Shown here in pieces: positions 24,391 to 44,846 of a stretch of DNA of 64,000 nt. The notes beneath the pieces are model-generated. The model did no database searches. It saw only the letters and a list, made by a program, of their open reading frames with translations, and had not been told where the DNA came from. The DNA comes from Candidatus Woesearchaeota archaeon. GTDB taxonomy: Archaea; Nanobdellota; Nanobdellia; Woesearchaeales; JACPBO01. Location of the stretch: assembly GCA_030651135.1 (NCBI GenBank), contig JAUSCS010000006.1, positions 586,160 to 650,159 of the forward strand, written 5' to 3'. The first letter of the stretch is position 1, and the number at the start of each line of letters is the position of its first letter. A program made the translations under genes and the position numbers.

Positions 24391-24546
24391 TCATGTGGTT
24401 CTATTAATTTTTCCAAACCGGCAGTAGGGCAAGTTATCTTTCATGCTTTCCTGTTCTAACTTCTTAACTAAGTTATCAACATACTCGGGATTGTTGCCCA
24501 GCGCTTTATACCAATTTTCCCATTCAAGCTCTTCTTTTTTATCCAT
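24391..24546 (-). CDS. short protein translationally coupled to pheA
   Basis: A 51-residue acidic protein starting MDKKEELEWENWYKAL. Its ATG lies inside the last codons of the prephenate dehydratase gene (8-nt overlap, ATGGATAA), with GGAGGT upstream (AGGTAAAA on the minus strand), so expression by coupling is plausible. No domain is recognised. Confidence 0.5.
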   Translation of the reverse strand: MDKKEELEWENWYKALGNNPEYVDNLVKKLEQESMKDNLPYCRFGKINRTT

Positions 24547-25411
24547 TTTTACCTCCACCATTTTCTTCAATTATTGGTTTTTTATAGCTGCCCAATATTC
24601 TTAATTCTCCGGGTTTTTTCTTAAGGTAATGTTTGATCAAATCTATTGCGCCTGCAACATGGCAGTCACTTTCATGGCCCTCAATGTCCATGTAAAGTAT
24701 CACGCCCCACATGCCATCGGCCCTGGGGTATATTGTAGTCTTTATATTGCCGCCGTGCAAAATCCTTTTTATTCCATTCAGAAATTCCGGCTCGTCATTT
24801 TCAGGATGTAGTGCGAGGCATGTTATGTCGTTGCCTGTTGGCTCTGTTTTGCAAATTTTTGAGATCACTGCGAATACTGTTTTATTTTTCTTAACCACGT
24901 CTCTGTCAATAATTTCAAGGCCATATTCCTTCAAAGCAGCTTCAGAGCCAATTGCCGCCGCATAGCGCATTTTTTTCATCGCAATTAATTCAGCTGCCTG
25001 CGCAGTGCTTGATGCCTCTTCTCTTTCAGCACCAGGATAATGCTTATCAAGGTAGCGGGAGCATTGCCTCAGCGCTTGGTCGCAGGATATTATCTTCTCA
25101 ATTTTTGATGCATTATGTATTGTCCCGATGCAATGCACTATGTCTAATACAATTGTATCTGTAATTCTCACATTATCTGTGTTTCTCAAATGCATTTTGC
25201 TGTTGTATTGCCACAGGCAATCTAATGTTTCATTAACAGGCCCCCCAATCTTATTGAATGTTGGCGCAATTCCGACATTTTCCCTCATTTCATTTATTGA
25301 CCTGAATACCTGTGTTATTGAGTTATACGGAATAATTTCAGCATTCCGATCATATTTTTCTGCTGCCTTTTCAGTATAGGTGCCTTTCGGCCCCAGCGTT
25401 GCGATTTTCAT
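24539..25411 (-). CDS. pheA: prephenate dehydratase
   Basis: A 290-residue enzyme converting prephenate to phenylpyruvate. The N-terminal MKIATLGPKGTYTEKAA matches the periplasmic-binding-like catalytic domain. SSTAQAAELIA near residue 135 carries the catalytic threonine neighbourhood, and a C-terminal ACT-like regulatory domain (about 195-275) includes GMWGVILYMDIEGH. A strong GGAGG lies before the ATG. Other aromatic-pathway genes are not nearby; single pheA-like genes in small genomes may be salvaged or have another substrate. Confidence 0.85.
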   Translation of the reverse strand: MKIATLGPKGTYTEKAAEKYDRNAEIIPYNSITQVFRSINEMRENVGIAPTFNKIGGPVNETLDCLWQYNSKMHLRNTDNVRITDTIVLDIVHCIGTIHNASKIEKIISCDQALRQCSRYLDKHYPGAEREEASSTAQAAELIAMKKMRYAAAIGSEAALKEYGLEIIDRDVVKKNKTVFAVISKICKTEPTGNDITCLALHPENDEPEFLNGIKRILHGGNIKTTIYPRADGMWGVILYMDIEGHESDCHVAGAIDLIKHYLKKKPGELRILGSYKKPIIEENGGGKNG

Positions 25412-25661
25412 GATTATGACCTCCGATTAGTTTTATTTGATGATGTATTATTTTGATCTATTTGCCAGAATTCCCTTGTTTTTGCCCCAAACATATGGCT
25501 TTTCAGACCAAAAGAAATTGAAGCATTATATCAAGAGATGCGACTAATAAAAGAATTTAAATGTAAAAGTTATAATATCGCGCATCATATTCCTTGGAAA
25601 ACAAAGCTTGTTAATAAAGTTTTCTTTTTTTAAGCCAAAAAATCTGAGAGTATTTATTGAA
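25412..25661. other. intergenic stretch with an orphan ORF tail
   Basis: About 250 nt between pheA and the first array repeat. On the plus strand a frame without an ATG start stays open at about 25462-25637 (...APNIWLFRPKEIEALYQ...), which could be the 3' remnant of a lost cassette gene. It ends with AAAAAATCTGAGAG, some 12 nt before the first repeat core. I see no tRNA and no further gene. Confidence 0.4.
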
Positions 25662-25770
25662 CATAACGATGTTATACACCTTTTCCCTCGTGAGCACCCT
25701 CGAAAATGGGAACCATTTTCAGAGATGGGGCGAACAGAGTGGAAAAGTTCGAAGAAAACGAAGTTTTCTG
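25662..25770 (+). repeat. array repeat site 1
   Basis: The core is CATAAC-GAT-GTTATAC (25662-25677). CTTTTCC (25680-25686) pairs with GGAAAAG (25741-25747). Inside lies GAAAATGG-GAA-CCATTTTC (25702-25720), bracketed by CTC and AGAG. A further GAAAAC-GAA-GTTTTC hairpin (25754-25768) follows. The cassette arm TTGGTGTGGG (25777-25786) pairs with CCCACACCAA at 26141-26150. Confidence 0.8.
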
Positions 25771-25795
25771 AGAAAGTTGGTGTGGGTGAGAAAGA

Positions 25796-26101
25796 CTATT
25801 TTTTCTTTTTAGATTTTATTTTTCCGATGATATAACCAACCAACATTCCAATTAAAATATAAAATAATAGACCGACTGAATATATAACAATTACATCCCT
25901 TAAACTGCACCATTTAAAACATATAAAAATAGTTGCTAATAATATTGGAAGACCTAATACTAAAGCAATAACACTTTGAATTATTCGTATGGAACTTAGG
26001 ACATCATTATAGGGTATTATACCATTTAAACCCACAATTATATAGACGATTAGTCCAATTATTCCCCCTTTCAACCATGTCGGTAACTTTTTCCATCCCA
26101 T
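25796..26101 (-). CDS. cassette 1: small membrane protein
   Basis: A 101-residue protein with three hydrophobic segments (about 10-30, 40-60 and 70-92) and a lysine-rich C-terminal tail (KIKSKKKK). No family is recognised. The gene points opposite to the recombinase. It is enclosed by the inverted arms TTGGTGTGGG / CCCACACCAA, with a second GAAAG / CTTTC pair next to them. Confidence 0.6.
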   Translation of the reverse strand: MGWKKLPTWLKGGIIGLIVYIIVGLNGIIPYNDVLSSIRIIQSVIALVLGLPILLATIFICFKWCSLRDVIVIYSVGLLFYILIGMLVGYIIGKIKSKKKK

Positions 26102-26153
26102 AAAGAAAAATAAAATCTTTAGCTATATAAAACTTTCGAGCCCACACCAATTG

Positions 26154-26283
26154 TATATAACGATGTTATATACCCCGACCTCGAGGCTTTCCTCCAACGA
26201 ACGAAAGTGAGTTGAGAGCTGAAAGCCTCAGAGCTGGAGGGTTGAGTACCGCAGTCCCGAAGGGACGAGGAACGGAAAAGTTC
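26154..26283 (+). repeat. array repeat site 2
   Basis: Has the longest core: TATATAAC-GAT-GTTATATA, with 8-bp perfect arms (26154-26172). The folded region contains GAGGCTTTC (26183-26191) pairing with GAAAGCCTC (26221-26229), AGAG after the stem, and GTCCC-GAA-GGGAC near 26254-26266. It ends with GGAAAAGTTC, as in sites 1 and 3. The next arms are AAAAGTCCGC (26284-26293) and AAGTTGGGGCAAAT (26323-26336). Confidence 0.8.
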
Positions 26284-26420
26284 AAAAGTCCGCGAGCTAA
26301 AATTTAGTTTAAGAATAAGTCAAAGTTGGGGCAAATAGTAAATTTATTAAACTTCAGGTTCGTTAGAAGTTATAAATAGGTTTTTAAATACTAATATATT
26401 CCTAAAAGAGGTGAATTAGA

Positions 26421-27308
26421 ATGAAAGTTATAAAAAATATTGTATGTCTTTTAATGATTCTGCTACTAATAGGTTTTACCTATGCTCAAGATGATTCAGA
26501 AATTGGGCCAGAAGGACATTCTTCAAATCTTTGTTTAGAAGATTCTGAATGTAGCCCTATATGTGTAAATCAAGATGAGTGTTATGTAAAAAGTTGCACA
26601 CCAAGATGTGTAGAAATTGGTCAATATAATGGTGGAAAGGGTAAATGTAAGGGGGAATTGGAATACTACACAAAAGACTTTAATGAGCAAGAAATAATAA
26701 AAGTAGCAGAAGAATTTTTGGTGTCAAGATTAGGAAGACAATATTTTGAAACACATTATGAATTTTCTTCAAGTAGAGCTATGGCAAATGGAAGGGGTTT
26801 AGAATTATTCTTTACATATGAAACTGAATTTCCTCCACAGGAAGCATTAATTCCACTTGAAATTCAGATGAGTATAGGGCATTGTAAAAATAAAGATTAT
26901 TACATCATAACCGGAAATGGTATTGTAGAACCTTTAAAAACAGAGGTTACGTATGATAAAGCTCTTGAAATTGCTAAATCAGAAGGATTTGAAAAAGATT
27001 TAATTATAACAAATGGTCTAATGGGTATTAAAATGGATGAACAATTTCAATCAAGATCGGGTTTACACTTCTTTGTGCAAAGACCTGCTTATATTATAAC
27101 CAAAAGAGGAGATGTAGGATGCGATGAATTTAAAACAATCTATATAGACGCATTTGAAGGTAAATACATAGAAAAGGTTTATGATAATGAATGTTATTTG
27201 GAGAGTGAGAAAAAGACCAGTGATTTAGACACCATAATAGAACCTGAAGTTGAAACAAAGAATATATTTCAGAAATTGTGGGAGTGGTTAAAAAACTTAT
27301 TTAAATAA
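26421..27308 (+). CDS. cassette 2: secreted cysteine-rich protein
   Basis: A 295-residue protein with a clear signal peptide (about residues 1-22, basic start then LLMILLLIGFTYA). A mature cysteine-rich segment follows (CLEDSECSPIC, then CYVKSCTPRC, with seven or more cysteines) and two PepSY-like alpha/beta repeats. The amphipathic tail is FQKLWEWLKNLFK. Probably exported and disulfide-bonded. AAAAGAGGTG before the ATG is a good ribosome site. The ends are enclosed by 14-bp perfect arms AAGTTGGGGCAAAT and ATTTGCCCCAACTT (27309-27322), the latter starting right after the stop codon. Confidence 0.7.
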   Translation: MKVIKNIVCLLMILLLIGFTYAQDDSEIGPEGHSSNLCLEDSECSPICVNQDECYVKSCTPRCVEIGQYNGGKGKCKGELEYYTKDFNEQEIIKVAEEFLVSRLGRQYFETHYEFSSSRAMANGRGLELFFTYETEFPPQEALIPLEIQMSIGHCKNKDYYIITGNGIVEPLKTEVTYDKALEIAKSEGFEKDLIITNGLMGIKMDEQFQSRSGLHFFVQRPAYIITKRGDVGCDEFKTIYIDAFEGKYIEKVYDNECYLESEKKTSDLDTIIEPEVETKNIFQKLWEWLKNLFK

Positions 27309-27369
27309 ATTTGCCCCAACTTACTAATTGCCATAAGGTAATATTTTGCGAGCGGACTTTTGAATTGTA

Positions 27370-27480
27370 TATAACGATGTTATACACCTTTTCCCTCGTG
27401 AGCCCCCCGAAAATTTGGGACAAATTTTCTGGCTGGGGCGAACAGAGTGGAAAAGTTCGACGAACGAAGTGAGGAGAAAG
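27370..27480 (+). repeat. array repeat site 3
   Basis: Core TATAAC-GAT-GTTATA (27370-27384). CTTTTCC (27388-27394) pairs with GGAAAAG (27449-27455). The inner hairpin is GAAAATTTG-GGA-CAAATTTTC (27409-27429). It differs from site 1 in both arms but stays perfectly paired. The preceding arm GCGGACTTTT (27352-27361) pairs back to 26284-26293. Confidence 0.82.
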
Positions 27481-27562
27481 TCACGAGGACACCGTCAAAA
27501 AGAAGTAAGGGGCTGGGCTTTCATAGAAATGTATTTATATCAGGGATTTAATTAAAGATAGC

Positions 27563-28009
27563 ATGAACAAGCCAAACTGTTTTATTTGTAATAAAGAAAT
27601 ATCATCTCCCAACTATAAGGATGACGAAGGGTTAGTGGTAAGTTATGATATATTCGCATTTCCACGAGCATACCATCGAAAATGTGCAATTTTCAGAGGT
27701 AAGTTTTTTCTGTGGGCCTTGAGTAGACTCATAAGGAGAGATTTCGAAAAGCGAAAAGGATGGCGTTCAACTGCATTAATTCCAATAGTTAATAATGAAG
27801 AGGCCTTTGGATGGACCATCATAAACTCTCCTTCTTTTAAATTCATTTCTATCTTTCTTACAGTAATTTATCTAGTTTTCTCAGGCATAGTGATTATTTT
27901 TGCAACTCAAGGGAGGAGTTTAACTCTAATTTTATTTTTCCCTATGCTTTTTCCAGGAATTGTAAAGTTGATATCTTACTTCAGATATGAAAGACTGTTT
28001 AAATCCTAA
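27563..28009 (+). CDS. cassette 3: zinc-knuckle membrane protein
   Basis: A 148-residue protein. Its N-terminus has CFICNKEI and, further on, YHRKC, which together could bind one zinc. Two transmembrane helices follow (about 92-112 and 117-138). I do not recognise the family. The gene is enclosed by 12-bp perfect arms CACGAGGACACC and GGTGTCCTCGTG and by an inner 11-bp pair GGGCTGGGCTT and AAGCCCAGCCC. Confidence 0.65.
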   Translation: MNKPNCFICNKEISSPNYKDDEGLVVSYDIFAFPRAYHRKCAIFRGKFFLWALSRLIRRDFEKRKGWRSTALIPIVNNEEAFGWTIINSPSFKFISIFLTVIYLVFSGIVIIFATQGRSLTLILFFPMLFPGIVKLISYFRYERLFKS

Positions 28010-28095
28010 TCTGAAATCGTATAAGCAAGTTAAGCCCAGCCCTAATCAATAAAATAGTTTTCCTTTTGACATTTAAAGGTGTCCTCGTGATTGTG

Positions 28096-28211
28096 TATAA
28101 CAATGTTATGTTCTCGTTCCCTCGAAACGAGCCCTCGCAAAATGGGACATTTTGCAGAGTGGCGAGTTTCAGAGATGGAACGACGAGGAAAACGAAGTTT
28201 TCCGAAGAGTC
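28096..28211 (+). repeat. array repeat site 4
   Basis: Variant core TATAAC-AAT-GTTATG (28096-28110). Nested stems follow: CTCGTTCC (28113-28120) against GGAACG..GAG (28177-28187), GAAAC (28124-28128) against GTTTC (28166-28170) followed by AGAG, and GCAAAATG-GGA-CATTTTGC (28137-28155). The last hairpin is GAAAAC-GAA-GTTTTC as in site 1. Next cassette arms: AGATTTTCTTTTC (28212-28224) and AAGTCGGGGGCAC (28259-28271). Confidence 0.8.
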
Positions 28212-28317
28212 AGATTTTCTTTTCAAAAGTTATGCAATAGCATAGAATATCAATAGTAAAGTCGGGGGCACCTACTATTCCAAAAGGTTTTTATAGATAT
28301 TAACTTACGGTTAAATT

Positions 28318-29277
28318 ATGATGGGGAAAAAGAGATTTTTTATTGGACCAGTAACATGGATTTTAGTTATAATAATTCTTTTTGTAAGTTATATTCTTGC
28401 ATACGCATTATTTAGTGGTTTGTATAAAGATACCAAAGTTATAGTTTATGGTAGTTTGGCTTTAATCTTCGGTTTGATTTGGCTAATTTATGTATTAACG
28501 AGTTCTTATATCCTAATCAAAGATAATCAAATATTATTCCCAAAGCAATATAAGATGAATCTTCAATTTATATTTGGATTAACATTCTTAATAGCCCTTT
28601 TTAAAAGAAGAAAAAGGATTAATATTAAGGATATTAGTAGTGTTGATTTGGTTGTAGGTTATACAGACTCTTTGGAATCATTACATCAACCATTAACCAT
28701 AACTCTTAAAGATGGGACAAAAGAAGTTTTCTTTATGAAATTCTATTCTAAAAAAACTGTAATGAATATTCTTAAGAATATGAAACAACTAAATCCTAAA
28801 ATAAATTTTTTAAAAAGTTGTAAAGAAATGATTGAATTAAAAAGTCCATTTAAGATGACTGAAACTGAAAAACAGGATTTCCGTAGAAAAAGAGGACTTC
28901 TTTTCTTTTGTTTAGGAATTATAGTAGTTATGTTTTTATTTATATTCTTTGTAAATGCGTTCGCTAAGTATGGAGGTGGAAATTTTGATATAAATAATAT
29001 CTCTATTCGGGATGATTTTCGAGAAGGGCATTATAATGAAAAAAGAATTCTGGTGTCCACAGAACAAGGACCATCCTTTGTAATCACTTACAAAAAAGGT
29101 TATGTTAATTATGGCGAAGTTACTAAATTTCTTGATGCTTTGAATACTAATAAGTCACTATATGCGAAGACCAGTATAAGTTATAAACAACTTTTTGGCG
29201 AAAGGTCTATGAAAGCAATAAAAGCAATGAATATAACTCTTTCTGATGGTAGAACATTTAATGTAGGTCTTCATTAG
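28318..29277 (+). CDS. cassette 4: membrane protein with a PH-like cytoplasmic domain
   Basis: A 319-residue protein with two N-terminal helices (about 12-32 and 41-62), then a strand-rich domain (about 65-165: IKDNQILFPKQ, ISSVDLVVGY, LTITLKDGTKEVFF) resembling bacterial PH-like domains. A third helix is at about 198-220, and the C-terminal domain lies on the outside or the opposite face. The arms AAGTCGGGGGCAC / GTGCCCCCGACTT (29290-29302) and AGATTTTCTTTTC / GAAAAGAAAATCT (29313-29325) are perfect over 13 bp each. Function unknown. Confidence 0.65.
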   Translation: MMGKKRFFIGPVTWILVIIILFVSYILAYALFSGLYKDTKVIVYGSLALIFGLIWLIYVLTSSYILIKDNQILFPKQYKMNLQFIFGLTFLIALFKRRKRINIKDISSVDLVVGYTDSLESLHQPLTITLKDGTKEVFFMKFYSKKTVMNILKNMKQLNPKINFLKSCKEMIELKSPFKMTETEKQDFRRKRGLLFFCLGIIVVMFLFIFFVNAFAKYGGGNFDINNISIRDDFREGHYNEKRILVSTEQGPSFVITYKKGYVNYGEVTKFLDALNTNKSLYAKTSISYKQLFGERSMKAIKAMNITLSDGRTFNVGLH

Positions 29278-29332
29278 GTTTTCAGTCTTGTGCCCCCGAC
29301 TTTTGTTTCTAAGAAAAGAAAATCTGATTGAA

Positions 29333-29437
29333 CATAACGATGTTATACACCCAAGCCTCGAATTTCCCCTTCACGAAGGGAACCTAAGTGAGAGTGGGAA
29401 ATTCAGAGGTGCGAGGCAAAACCCGAAGGGTTTTGAG
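29333..29437 (+). repeat. array repeat site 5
   Basis: Core CATAAC-GAT-GTTATAC (29333-29348), preceded by GATTGAA. Stems: GCCTCG (29355-29360) with CGAGGC (29412-29417), GAATTTCCC (29360-29368) with GGGAAATTC (29396-29404) followed by AGAG, CCTTC-ACG-AAGG inside, and AAAACCC-GAA-GGGTTTT (29418-29434). Next arms: TTGTCGGCAC (29438-29447) and AGAGGTCGGC (29464-29473). Confidence 0.8.
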
Positions 29438-29476
29438 TTGTCGGCACACTAAAATAAAAGAATAGAGGTCGGCGAG

Positions 29477-30043
29477 CTAAATTATTTCGTATTCACCAAT
29501 TGTTAAAACTTTAATTCCACTATAACCATACCAACCAGTTGTTTTAAATTTAGAGCCTTCTTCTAATCCTGGAAGAGTTATTTCTGTTTCTTCAGTAATT
29601 GTCCCGCTTTTGGTTGAATATACAAAATAACCATTTTCTTTTGTAAAAGAAAGTGTGGCACTTACTGCACTCTCATTTCCAGAACTTGCTGGAGCTTCTG
29701 GATCAAAAACTTTTCTAATCTTGGTTGGTCTTGCACTATATTGAAGTTGGATTGTAATTTCTTTACCTTCTTCAATTCCTGCTGAAACCCAATCAAAATC
29801 ACCGCTTATGGAATTAATTTTATCAATTCTTACAACTGTTGTATCTCTTGGACGAGTAATATCTCCTCCCTCTTCTTCTCCACCAACTAAAGATAACGAG
29901 AGGACAGTGCCTTCGAAATTTACATTTGGTAAAAATACTGCTTGGGGTAGGGGTTTGCTTCTCTCTTGATTCATAACTAAAAAAAGTCCAGCTATAATTA
30001 TTAATGCAATAATTCCAACAATCAAATAATATTTCTGTTTCAT
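29477..30043 (-). CDS. cassette 5: membrane-anchored extracytoplasmic protein
   Basis: A 188-residue protein with an N-terminal hydrophobic anchor or signal (about 5-24, YYLIVGIIALIIIAGLFLV) and a strand-rich exported domain. No lipobox cysteine is seen. No named family. The gene reads against the recombinase. Its arms AGAGGTCGGC / GCCGACCTCT (30114-30123) and TTGTCGGCAC / GTGCCGACAA (30136-30145) are perfect over 10 bp each. The distance from the second arm to the start codon is longer than in other cassettes. Confidence 0.62.
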   Translation of the reverse strand: MKQKYYLIVGIIALIIIAGLFLVMNQERSKPLPQAVFLPNVNFEGTVLSLSLVGGEEEGGDITRPRDTTVVRIDKINSISGDFDWVSAGIEEGKEITIQLQYSARPTKIRKVFDPEAPASSGNESAVSATLSFTKENGYFVYSTKSGTITEETEITLPGLEEGSKFKTTGWYGYSGIKVLTIGEYEII

Positions 30044-30149
30044 AATTCATTGATAGTTTAAGTTCTATTTAAACTTACCGAAAACTTCTGATTGAATTGA
30101 AGCTATCGTACGAGCCGACCTCTAATAATAAATAAGTGCCGACAATTGT

Positions 30150-30230
30150 GCATAACTCAATATATGCAAACTCCCTTATCTTTGGCCGTTATGAGCCCTG
30201 AAATGGCAAAATTTGGAGGATCATAACACG
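30150..30230 (+). repeat. divergent terminal site next to the recombinase
   Basis: GCATAAC (30150-30156) replaces the usual core, and the matching GTTATG appears only 32 nt later (30188-30193), followed by CATAAC again at 30222-30227. The folded region seen in sites 1-5 is absent. Its place between the last cassette and the recombinase promoter is that of an attI-like primary site. Confidence 0.5.
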
Positions 30231-30262
30231 TTTTTCCGTCTCTATTCTGAAGTTGTATAAAG

Positions 30263-30288
30263 CCACTGGACACATTGGACACCTGCGG
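30263..30288 (+). promoter_or_regulatory. 26-nt motif shared with the homing endonuclease promoter
   Basis: CCACTGGACACATTGGAC, then ACCTGCGG, matches 24 of 26 positions of 794-819. A CATATATAAATAA box follows at 30294-30306, and the recombinase ATG is at 30344. Both downstream genes encode mobility enzymes. Confidence 0.6.
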
Positions 30289-30343
30289 CTGGAACATATA
30301 TAAATAAGCCGCAACACCCATTATTGACAAAGAAGTGATCAGC

Positions 30344-31183
30344 ATGGACATTCCCGAATTGATACGGAAGATCGGCCTGAGAAGAGGCCTTAGCATAAGG
30401 ACAATAAATACATACAGGCAGTGCGTAAAGCTCTTTTTCAGGCAGTGCAGTAAAGATCCTAAAGAAGTTAAAAAATCAGACATAGAAGGCTATCTCGACA
30501 GGCTGATAGAGAAAGGCAAAGCAGGCAACACAGTAAATGTTTATCTTAATGCCTTGAAATTCTTTTATAACGAAATTCTGCACAAGCGGCTTTTGTTAAA
30601 TATGCGGTTTTCAAAAACCCCAAAAGAAATGCCTGTTGTGCTTACGAAAGAAGAGACAAAAAGATTGATCGAAGCAATAGAAAATCCAAAGCACAGGCTT
30701 ATGGTAAAGCTGCTGTATTCTGCAGGCTTAAGGGTGAGTGAGCTTGTTAATCTGAAGCCCGAGCATTTTGAATTCTCAAAAAATTACGGTTGGGTGAGAC
30801 GAGGCAAAGGCAACAAAGACAGGTTGTTTATAGTGGCAGAAAAACTCAAGGAAGAATTAATGAGCCACATAACAAACGAATGCCCTTGCCAGCATTCGTG
30901 GCTTTTTGAGGGTAAAAATGGCCATATAACCATAACAACGCTTCAGAAAATAATAAAGACTGCAGCAAAAAAAGCCAGAATTGAAAAGAATGTCCATCCA
31001 CATACATTGAGGCACAGCTTTGCAACGCATCTGATTGAAAACGGATATGATGTCGCTTCTGTCCAGTCCTTGCTGGGCCATGGAAGCGCAGCTACAACAA
31101 TGGTCTACGTGCATATGGCTTCTCCGAGAATGATCAATGTAACAAGCCCGATAGAAGGATTATGGGCATCTGGGATGCAATAA
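30344..31183 (+). CDS. Xer/IntI-like tyrosine recombinase beside the cassette array
   Basis: A 279-residue tyrosine recombinase. The N-terminal core-binding domain (about 1-85) has the ISIRTINTYRQCVKLFF-type SAM-like helices. The catalytic domain has R in SAGLRVSEL (about 131), K in GKGNKDR, H-x-x-R in HTLRHSFATHL, H in LLGHGS and the nucleophile Y in TMVYVHM. It ends in INVTSPIEGL, like the tail of integron integrases (VRSPLDAL), but it lacks the extra IntI helix insertion before HTLRH. So it is Xer-like rather than a standard IntI. It starts at ATG 30344, with GTG 30335 as an alternative. Confidence 0.9.
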   Translation: MDIPELIRKIGLRRGLSIRTINTYRQCVKLFFRQCSKDPKEVKKSDIEGYLDRLIEKGKAGNTVNVYLNALKFFYNEILHKRLLLNMRFSKTPKEMPVVLTKEETKRLIEAIENPKHRLMVKLLYSAGLRVSELVNLKPEHFEFSKNYGWVRRGKGNKDRLFIVAEKLKEELMSHITNECPCQHSWLFEGKNGHITITTLQKIIKTAAKKARIEKNVHPHTLRHSFATHLIENGYDVASVQSLLGHGSAATTMVYVHMASPRMINVTSPIEGLWASGMQ

Positions 31184-31213: not shown

Positions 31214-31600
31214 ATGAAGGCCATAATCCTTGACACAAACTTTCTGACCATTCCGGCAGAGTTCAAAGTAGACATTTTCTCAGAGATAGACAGAATATGC
31301 AATTTCAATTATTCGCTTTTTGTTTTGGATAAATCAGTTGAAGAGCTAAAAAAGATGATTGAAACCCAAAAAGGAAAAGAAAAGGCAAAAGCCAGGCTGG
31401 CGCTTCAGTTGATCGAAAACAAGGAAATAAGCATAATAAAGACAAACTCAGGCAAGACAGTTGACGATCTCCTTGTTGATCTGTCAGAAGACAGGAACAA
31501 TATCATCGCAACCCAGGACAGGGAGCTGAGAAAGCAGCTGAAGGGAAAAACCACCATATTTTTGAGAAATAAGAAATATCTTGAAATGTCAACAGGCTAA
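31214..31600 (+). CDS. PIN-domain ribonuclease, Fcf1-like
   Basis: A 128-residue PIN domain. LDTNFL supplies the first catalytic aspartate, KSVEELKKM the glutamate, and DLSEDRNNIIATQDRELRKQLKG the remaining acidic residues. No antitoxin lies upstream, and the order PIN-Rpo7-Spt4 is common in archaea. So an rRNA-processing role like Fcf1/Utp24 is more likely than a VapC toxin. The ribosome-site region is weak; the start lies 30 nt after the recombinase stop. Confidence 0.82.
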   Translation: MKAIILDTNFLTIPAEFKVDIFSEIDRICNFNYSLFVLDKSVEELKKMIETQKGKEKAKARLALQLIENKEISIIKTNSGKTVDDLLVDLSEDRNNIIATQDRELRKQLKGKTTIFLRNKKYLEMSTG

Positions 31601-44018: not shown

Positions 44019-44846
44019 ATGCAAAAAGAGGAACTAGTCAAGTACATTGAAAAATTGAAAACAGAGCTTAAGCTTAGAGCTTGCAGCCAAAGAACAATAC
44101 AGTCTTACATCTTTTTTATAAAACCATTTTTGGAATCAGTTGAGTCTGTGGAATCTATAAGCCTAGATCAGTGCAAGGCCTTCTTGGCAAACCTCATTGA
44201 CAAGTACAGCAATAAATCCAGATCCCTGGCAGTTTCAAGCCTAAGGTTCTTTTTCAAAAGGGTTGTGGAAAGGCCAGATATTTTTGTAAAACTAGAGATC
44301 CCTAAAAAAGAGAAAAAGTTGCCAACTGTTCTTTCAGTTTCTGAGATTAAGGCGCTCATTAATGCGGCGGATTTTGCTAAAACAAGGTTGATTATAAAAT
44401 TACTTTATTCTTCTGGCTTAAGGGTGAGTGAGCTTGTTAATCTGACTCCAAAAGATCTTGATTTTGAGCAGAGCATAGGGTGGGTTAGAAAAGGCAAGGG
44501 AAGCAAAGACAGAATGTTTAAAATAGCAGACTCTATATCCAAACAACTTAAAAAACATCTAAGCAAGAATTCAAATAACAAATATGTGTTTTCAGAAGAA
44601 AAGCCAATGTCCGCCAGAAATATACAGCTTTTAATAAAAAAGGCCGCCCAAAAGGCAAAAATAAACAAAAAGGTAACTCCTCATACGATGAGGCACAGTT
44701 TTGCCACACATCTGCTTGAAAGCGGAGAGAATCTGCTCGTTATACAGCAGCTCCTAGGTCATGAAAATCTTGAAACCACAAGGATCTACACACATATCAG
44801 CCAGGATCAAATCAAGAATGTTAAAAGCCCCTTAGACAGGTTATGA
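44019..44846 (+). CDS. xerA: XerA-like tyrosine recombinase
   Basis: A 275-residue recombinase with the full catalytic set: SSGLRVSEL, GKGSKDR, HTMRHSFATHLL, LLGHENLETTRIYTHI. It ends in VKSPLDRL. The size and lack of extra domains match archaeal XerA, which resolves chromosome dimers at dif. It is a relative, not a copy, of the recombinase at 30344 (shared catalytic core, different N-terminus). Confidence 0.88.
   Translation: MQKEELVKYIEKLKTELKLRACSQRTIQSYIFFIKPFLESVESVESISLDQCKAFLANLIDKYSNKSRSLAVSSLRFFFKRVVERPDIFVKLEIPKKEKKLPTVLSVSEIKALINAADFAKTRLIIKLLYSSGLRVSELVNLTPKDLDFEQSIGWVRKGKGSKDRMFKIADSISKQLKKHLSKNSNNKYVFSEEKPMSARNIQLLIKKAAQKAKINKKVTPHTMRHSFATHLLESGENLLVIQQLLGHENLETTRIYTHISQDQIKNVKSPLDRL

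Follow-up and report, generated by a model that had tools for sequence, protein, structure and literature searches.

Layout of the array and its recombinase

The stretch of DNA considered here, referred to as the window, comprises 64,000 nucleotides from a Candidatus Woesearchaeota archaeon (NCBI GenBank assembly GCA_030651135.1, contig JAUSCS010000006.1, positions 586,160 to 650,159 of the forward strand), and harbors five head-to-tail, single-gene cassettes at 25656-30150, to the left of the gene of a Xer-type tyrosine recombinase (30344-31183). An earlier reading of the sequence alone had proposed an array of one-gene cassettes akin to an integron, the gene-capture system best known for its part in bacterial antibiotic resistance; the five cassettes and their sites were confirmed, and the finding extends to relatives. 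The cassettes are separated by five sites on the + strand (starting at 25656, 26150, 27364, 28090 and 29327), each of which opens with the core ATTGNNYATAAC-GAT-GTTATR, followed by some 100 nucleotides with a strong tendency to fold. The palindromic core motif put forward in the sequence-only reading occurs in its exact form, TATAAC-GAT-GTTATA, at only two of the five sites; two further cores start with CATAAC, and the remaining one is TATAACAATGTTATG. With at most 3 mismatches allowed, the window has 19 near matches to the core, where chance alone would give 5.3.

Each cassette reads, in order, right core half (GTTAT...), fold with stems P3 and P4, arm P1, inner arm, gene, the inner arm's partner (inner arm'), P1' and left core half (...ATAAC). 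Two nested arm pairs are present in all five. Those listed earlier (26323/27309, 27481/28078, 28210/29313, 28258/29290 and 29464/30114) were all recovered as exact, while that list lacked 26281/27352, 27510/28032, 29438/30136, 25777/26141 and 25811/26105. Also absent from it was a sixth, half-matching and attI-like site at 30145-30171, 173 nucleotides left of the recombinase start codon; its left half closes cassette 5, and its right half, TATATGCAA, is the platform's own. Read on the minus strand, the locus runs recombinase, attI and then repeated gene-fold-core units, which is the order of an integron. The features are as follows.

25656-25776, + strand: site 1, core and fold (P3/P4), its right half being that of cassette 1; covariance model R1, 106.9 bits
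26150-26268, + strand: site 2, core and fold of cassette 2; R1, 92.2 bits
27364-27477, + strand: site 3, core and fold of cassette 3; R1, 93.0 bits
28090-28210, + strand: site 4, core and fold of cassette 4; R1, 99.6 bits
29327-29441, + strand: site 5, core and fold of cassette 5; R1, 100.8 bits
30145-30171, + strand: attI-like half site ATTGTGCATAACTCAATATATGCAAAC; same motif upstream of most related recombinases
30344-31183, + strand: Xer-type tyrosine recombinase of the array clade; ATG at 30344, alternative GTG at 30335
25777-25786 / 26141-26150, + strand: outer arms, cassette 1
25811-25824 / 26105-26118: inner arms, cassette 1
26281-26293 / 27352-27364, + strand: outer arms, cassette 2
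26323-26336 / 27309-27322: inner arms, cassette 2 (14 nucleotides)
27481-27493 / 28078-28090, + strand: outer arms, cassette 3 (13 nucleotides)
27510-27520 / 28032-28042: inner arms, cassette 3
28210-28224 / 29313-29327, + strand: outer arms, cassette 4 (15 nucleotides)
28258-28271 / 29290-29303: inner arms, cassette 4 (14 nucleotides)
29438-29447 / 30136-30145, + strand: outer arms, cassette 5
29464-29473 / 30114-30123: inner arms, cassette 5 (10 nucleotides)
25796-26101, - strand: cassette 1 gene, 101 amino acids, no Pfam family above cut-off
26421-27308, + strand: cassette 2 gene, 295 amino acids, apparent signal-like N-terminus, no Pfam match
27563-28009, + strand: cassette 3 gene, 148 amino acids, hydrophobic stretches, no Pfam match
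28318-29277, + strand: cassette 4 gene, 319 amino acids, hydrophobic stretches, no Pfam match
29477-30043, - strand: cassette 5 gene, 188 amino acids, hydrophobic N-terminus, no Pfam family above cut-off

A Pfam scan of the five cassette genes placed none in a family above cut-off. The recombinase itself matches PF00589 (3e-39) and exceeds the cut-off of the XerA_Arch model NF040815 (234 bits, cut-off 220), while it stays below that of the integron-integrase model TIGR02249 (208 bits, cut-off 265). Congruent with the sequence-only reading, the IntI-specific domain is absent, with 16 residues (between 176 and 193) where IntI4 (2a3v) has 58 (between 181 and 240). The R-K-HxxR-H-Y residues are in place, as judged from the sequence and an alignment with 5hxy (R in GLRVSEL, K in GKGNKD, HTLR, LLGHG and YVHM). 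Array-associated recombinases form a single clade (Shimodaira-Hasegawa-like approximate likelihood ratio test, 100), apart from other Xer paralogues including one encoded at 44076-44843 of the window; the latter is a second XerA-type recombinase, 37% identical and outside the array clade, and perhaps the chromosomal XerA. The recombinases of the window and of a congener, G001, are 88% identical. Most members of the clade are preceded by the attI motif TAACNNNNTATATGCGAA (at most 3 mismatches), usually 160-640 nucleotides before the start, whereas at paralogues of 35-43% identity the best matches mostly carry 4-5 mismatches, like random stretches. In all 17 of 17 cases in which a site and a recombinase were found on one contig, the two share a strand, with the site upstream of the recombinase. 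The array is neighbored by a prephenate dehydratase gene to the left (24539-25411) and a PIN_9-domain gene to the right (31214-31600), and the congener differs from the window in the left flank.

Private pairing and predicted fold of the cassette ends

The sequence-only reading held that each cassette end recognises only its own partner, and this was borne out in 88 cassettes from 23 arrays, compared with 20,000 within-array permutations. Joined ends were composed of the left core half from the right end of a cassette and the right core half from its left end. Own arms align with a score of 12.0, as opposed to 6.8 when set against other cassettes. The core halves, whose private pairing had escaped the earlier account, match over their four outermost nucleotides at 3.33/4 as opposed to 1.65/4; for arms and core halves alike, 0 of the 20,000 permutations scored as high. 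When joined, the core halves form a perfect or near-perfect palindrome of 9 base pairs (bp), as in GTATATAAC/GTTATATAC, GTGTATAAC/GTTATACAC and the private pair of cassette 4, GAACATAAC/GTTATGTTC. The linear sites instead combine halves of neighboring cassettes, and are mismatched in many cases. The core hairpin P2 displays 92.7% paired cells and a covariation of 0.526 in 59 distinct joined ends, compared to 79.4% and 0.210 in 67 linear sites, and its third position is AT in 46, GC in 23, AC in 3 and GT in 1 of the joined ends, compared to AT 40, GT 20, AC 20 and GC 8 in the linear sites. DNA folding yields -36.6 kcal/mol for joined ends and -26.3 with the 3' end of another cassette, a gain of 10.3, and the own 3' end folds better than the swapped one in 76 of 82. 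The pairing links both ends of units of up to 2.7 kilobases (kb).

In line with the expectation that circularised ends would join as arm'-core-fold-arm, the modelled joined ends are predicted to fold, on one strand, into a conserved four-way junction. Across joined ends from five arrays of different genomes, DNA folding predicts a common plan in nearly all, the exceptions being the L58 junction and one G001 junction. P1 represents the private arms and P2 the private core hairpin of 8-9 bp with a 3-4-nucleotide loop; P3 is a long stem with one-sided bulges (CTCG against CAGAG), short in some lineages, and P4 a hairpin with a loop that is mostly C-GAA-G or C-GTA-G, of the GNA type. GNA triloops are a known stable motif in single-stranded DNA. 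The fold regions hold 36 of them and 0 of the complementary type, and this one-strandedness suggests single-stranded DNA; in 67 of 82 joined ends the + strand folds more stably. Relative to the fold, genes are oriented '+' in 48 and '-' in 31 of 79 cases. The fold precedes some genes and follows others, and it is therefore unlikely to be a terminator or an RNA leader; arms serving as terminators alone had been named beforehand as speaking against the cassette interpretation. A scan of the region against Rfam returned no family at gathering level.

Two further observations were made on the sites. The core spacer is 4 nucleotides rather than 3 in L040, L123 and L038 (GACT, GCCC, GCCT, GATT), uniformly so within L040, and such spacers may mark recombinase subtypes. 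Moreover, a conserved element, GTTYAATCAAGCGAACAARGTGAG..., resides between the outer and inner arm in cassettes of different genera (L066 8320-8390 and 10785-10850; L044 3264-3310).

Distribution, movement and cargo of the cassettes

Core-pattern searches alone proved too loose, with chance matches in most genomes about as frequent as in the reversed control, and we therefore adopted a covariance model built from 14 sites. This check, already envisaged in the sequence-only reading, detected sites in 80 of the 353 genomes from the order (E <= 0.01), and among relatives, arrays of the same kind hold other cargo. Sampling of the phylum gave matches in 51 of 371 genomes (E <= 1e-4), including 18 of the same class outside the order; weak matches may partly be chance. 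Four bacterial genomes gave no matches, a weak control, and viral contigs contained distant recombinases only and no site patterns. Across the order, array-type recombinases, scored in 85 genomes and in nearly all of them by a best E <= 1e-70, co-occur with the sites (odds ratio 8, p = 7e-14), an association that is strong and incomplete. Arrays are often located at contig ends. L129, however, comprises twelve cassettes, attI and recombinase within one 209-kb contig of a six-contig genome, and being internal to the contig it is no assembly artefact.

Single sites scattered without cassettes had likewise been considered beforehand as speaking against an array: sites are mostly found in arrays, but lone ones do occur, in a minority of the loci examined. 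An example is a site-like element at G000:C6:327541-327683 (L136 5542-5684), elsewhere in the same genome and with no array, about 12.6 kb from another Xer paralogue (340245). In L133 (G204:C11) and L135, cassettes of 81-107 nucleotides lie between sites, with no room for a gene, and are possibly empty cassettes.

Several findings point to movement. Two cassettes of L129 are 93% identical over their full length, and the identity begins and ends within the core; when this duplicated cassette was sought in 48 other genomes of its family, mostly the fold and core part was found, not the gene. A HicBA-like cassette (assigned by eye, with no family search) is common to two families (L120 5740-6380 and L135 cassette 2) at 72% DNA identity. 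Its arms, GAGAAAACGGCA/TGCCGTTTTCTC, are kept, while both core halves have changed together, GGTGA/TCACC in one and GCTC/GAGC in the other, which on sequence comparison is a natural compensatory change. A stable cassette order across relatives, the third outcome held beforehand to oppose mobility, was not seen, as no cassette of congener G001 matched any window cassette in nucleotide or protein comparison. Across arrays, cassettes mostly hold one or two genes, and outside the window these encode, among others, ParE and PIN toxins, an EcoRV-type restriction enzyme with methyltransferases, Fic, regulators, a deformylase and NUDIX.

Interpretation and relation to known systems

Aggregated, these findings make the locus a likely example of integron-like gene capture in nanoarchaeal (Woesearchaeales-type) genomes, the platform being composed of a dedicated Xer-type recombinase, an attI-like site and a mobile cassette array. 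The units, their core boundaries and private ends, the fixed order and orientation relative to the recombinase, the cassette duplication and the sharing between families can be read from the sequences themselves. We infer excised circles, catalysis by the array recombinase, crossover in the core spacer and a folded single-stranded substrate. According to this model, the two ends of a cassette would meet, either once the cassette has been excised as a circle or while its gene is looped out of single-stranded DNA, and would form a four-way junction on one strand, with the crossover in the 3-4-nucleotide loop of P2. The recombinase would exchange strands in the core spacer, upon which the cassette would leave, and it would enter at attI or another core in a fixed orientation. 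As the crossover would fall between the core halves, a cassette would retain its own halves and arms for life, and the private code could thus persist. The principle also applies to classical integrons, but there only to a few bases of the R box, whereas here it spans arms and core.

The array shares with integrons the adjoining recombinase gene and attI, one-way head-to-tail cassettes of one or a few genes, structured sites with imperfect palindromes, and a varied cargo that includes toxin-antitoxin and further defence genes. In contrast, its recombinase is XerA-like and without the IntI domain, and the crossover would take place in the loop of a core hairpin rather than at the base of an attC stem. 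The array sites further differ in having their fold outside the core, private pairing arms on either side of the gene, and GNA triloops. Of the traits that define an integron, an attI adjoining the integrase gene and cassettes running in one direction are present, while the attC layout R''-L''...L'-R' wholly at one gene end is not observed for the array sites. Of the G/TTRRRY crossover motif, GTT is conserved; GTTAGGC fits in some arrays, and most read GTTATGC or GTTATAC. Since both the IntI domain and the attC layout are lacking, we place the array among cassette-capture systems, possibly as a separate class. Each element of the sequence-only reading, that this is integron-like and not a textbook integron, held under testing, and that interpretation is supported. 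On balance we lean towards an independent second integron class, in which gene capture evolved from a XerA-type resolvase in nanoarchaea and a single-stranded four-way junction is completed only by the cassette's own ends, a private code of self-recognition. Folded single-stranded att sites have been regarded as a property of IntI integrons. Our search of the open-access literature found no description of such a system; preprints and most subscription journals were not covered, and a prior description is possible.

Some observations weigh against the gene-capture platform. Tyrosine recombinase spacers usually measure 6-8 bp, but most of these sites have 5 bp, and some 6, between ATAA and TTAT. 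Among the 85 genomes of the order with an array-type recombinase, 39 have no model match, and conversely 34 of the 80 matched genomes are without an equally strong recombinase. Furthermore, the private palindromes could arise from template-switch correction of the joined form, with no need for folding.

Double-stranded cassette exchange of the Xer/dif type, with the XerA relative acting on duplex dif-like cores and the arms, P3 and P4 being accessory (protein-binding sites, insulators or terminators), appears unlikely to us. The recombinase scores as XerA_Arch, and the half site ATTGNNNATAA resembles the arms of archaeal dif, which has 11-bp arms, a 6-bp spacer and flanking inverted repeats (PMC2958812). 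Yet a duplex site needs no private complementarity of its ends, and the core halves covary when joined; the GNA loops are confined to one strand, and genes run in either direction around the fold. The XerA/dif system has a single 28-bp site (11-6-11) near the terminus; the arrays have multiple sites beside a recombinase of a separate clade, many sites per genome, cassettes between the sites, a spacer of 5 (or 6) bp and an adjacent conserved fold. Genes between Xer-type sites are also known from dif modules of Acinetobacter plasmids (PMC6449649, PMC13141974), but those rely on host XerC/XerD and have no attached fold, whereas the present sites are all in one orientation, with a long fold, private arms, their own recombinase and an attI-like site.

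A classical integron or cluster of attC sites lacking an integrase (CALIN), that is an IntI-type integrase and ordinary attC sites mis-seen, is very improbable. The order of recombinase, attI and cassettes is that of integrons, some cores (GCCTAAC...GTTAGGC) fit the R-box consensus, and classical integrons (IntI, attI and attC cassettes) exist in some archaea (PMC9668308); however, the IntI domain is missing, the TIGR02249 score falls short, the core halves are 3-4 nucleotides apart with the fold outside them, unlike R''-L''-loop-L'-R', and private arms stand on both sides of the gene. We give next to no credence to tandemly inserted elements similar to transposons or miniature inverted-repeat transposable elements (MITEs) with private terminal inverted repeats: every gene does lie between inverted repeats of its own, but there is no common terminal repeat for a transposase and no transposase in the window array, and the units abut via one shared core, in a single orientation, beside one recombinase clade. 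Equally far-fetched is the idea that every gene is preceded by a structured RNA of a cis-regulatory or ribozyme-like kind rather than by a DNA recombination site. It would account for the conserved fold and compensatory changes, but not for a fold downstream of minus-strand genes (31 of 79), GNA triloops, a pairing that joins the ends of units up to 2.7 kb, or the lack of an Rfam match. The terminator reading was set aside together with these two.

If correct, a Xer-type enzyme with a different folded site would mean that cassette capture arose repeatedly, or by a route not involving IntI, and it prompts a directly testable question, namely whether folded single-stranded DNA can serve as a substrate for an ordinary relative of XerA. 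Tools that seek IntI and attC may miss such arrays, at which assemblies also appear to break. The platform would then account for the uptake and reshuffling of genes, such as toxin-antitoxin pairs, restriction systems and regulators, in DPANN archaea with their small genomes.

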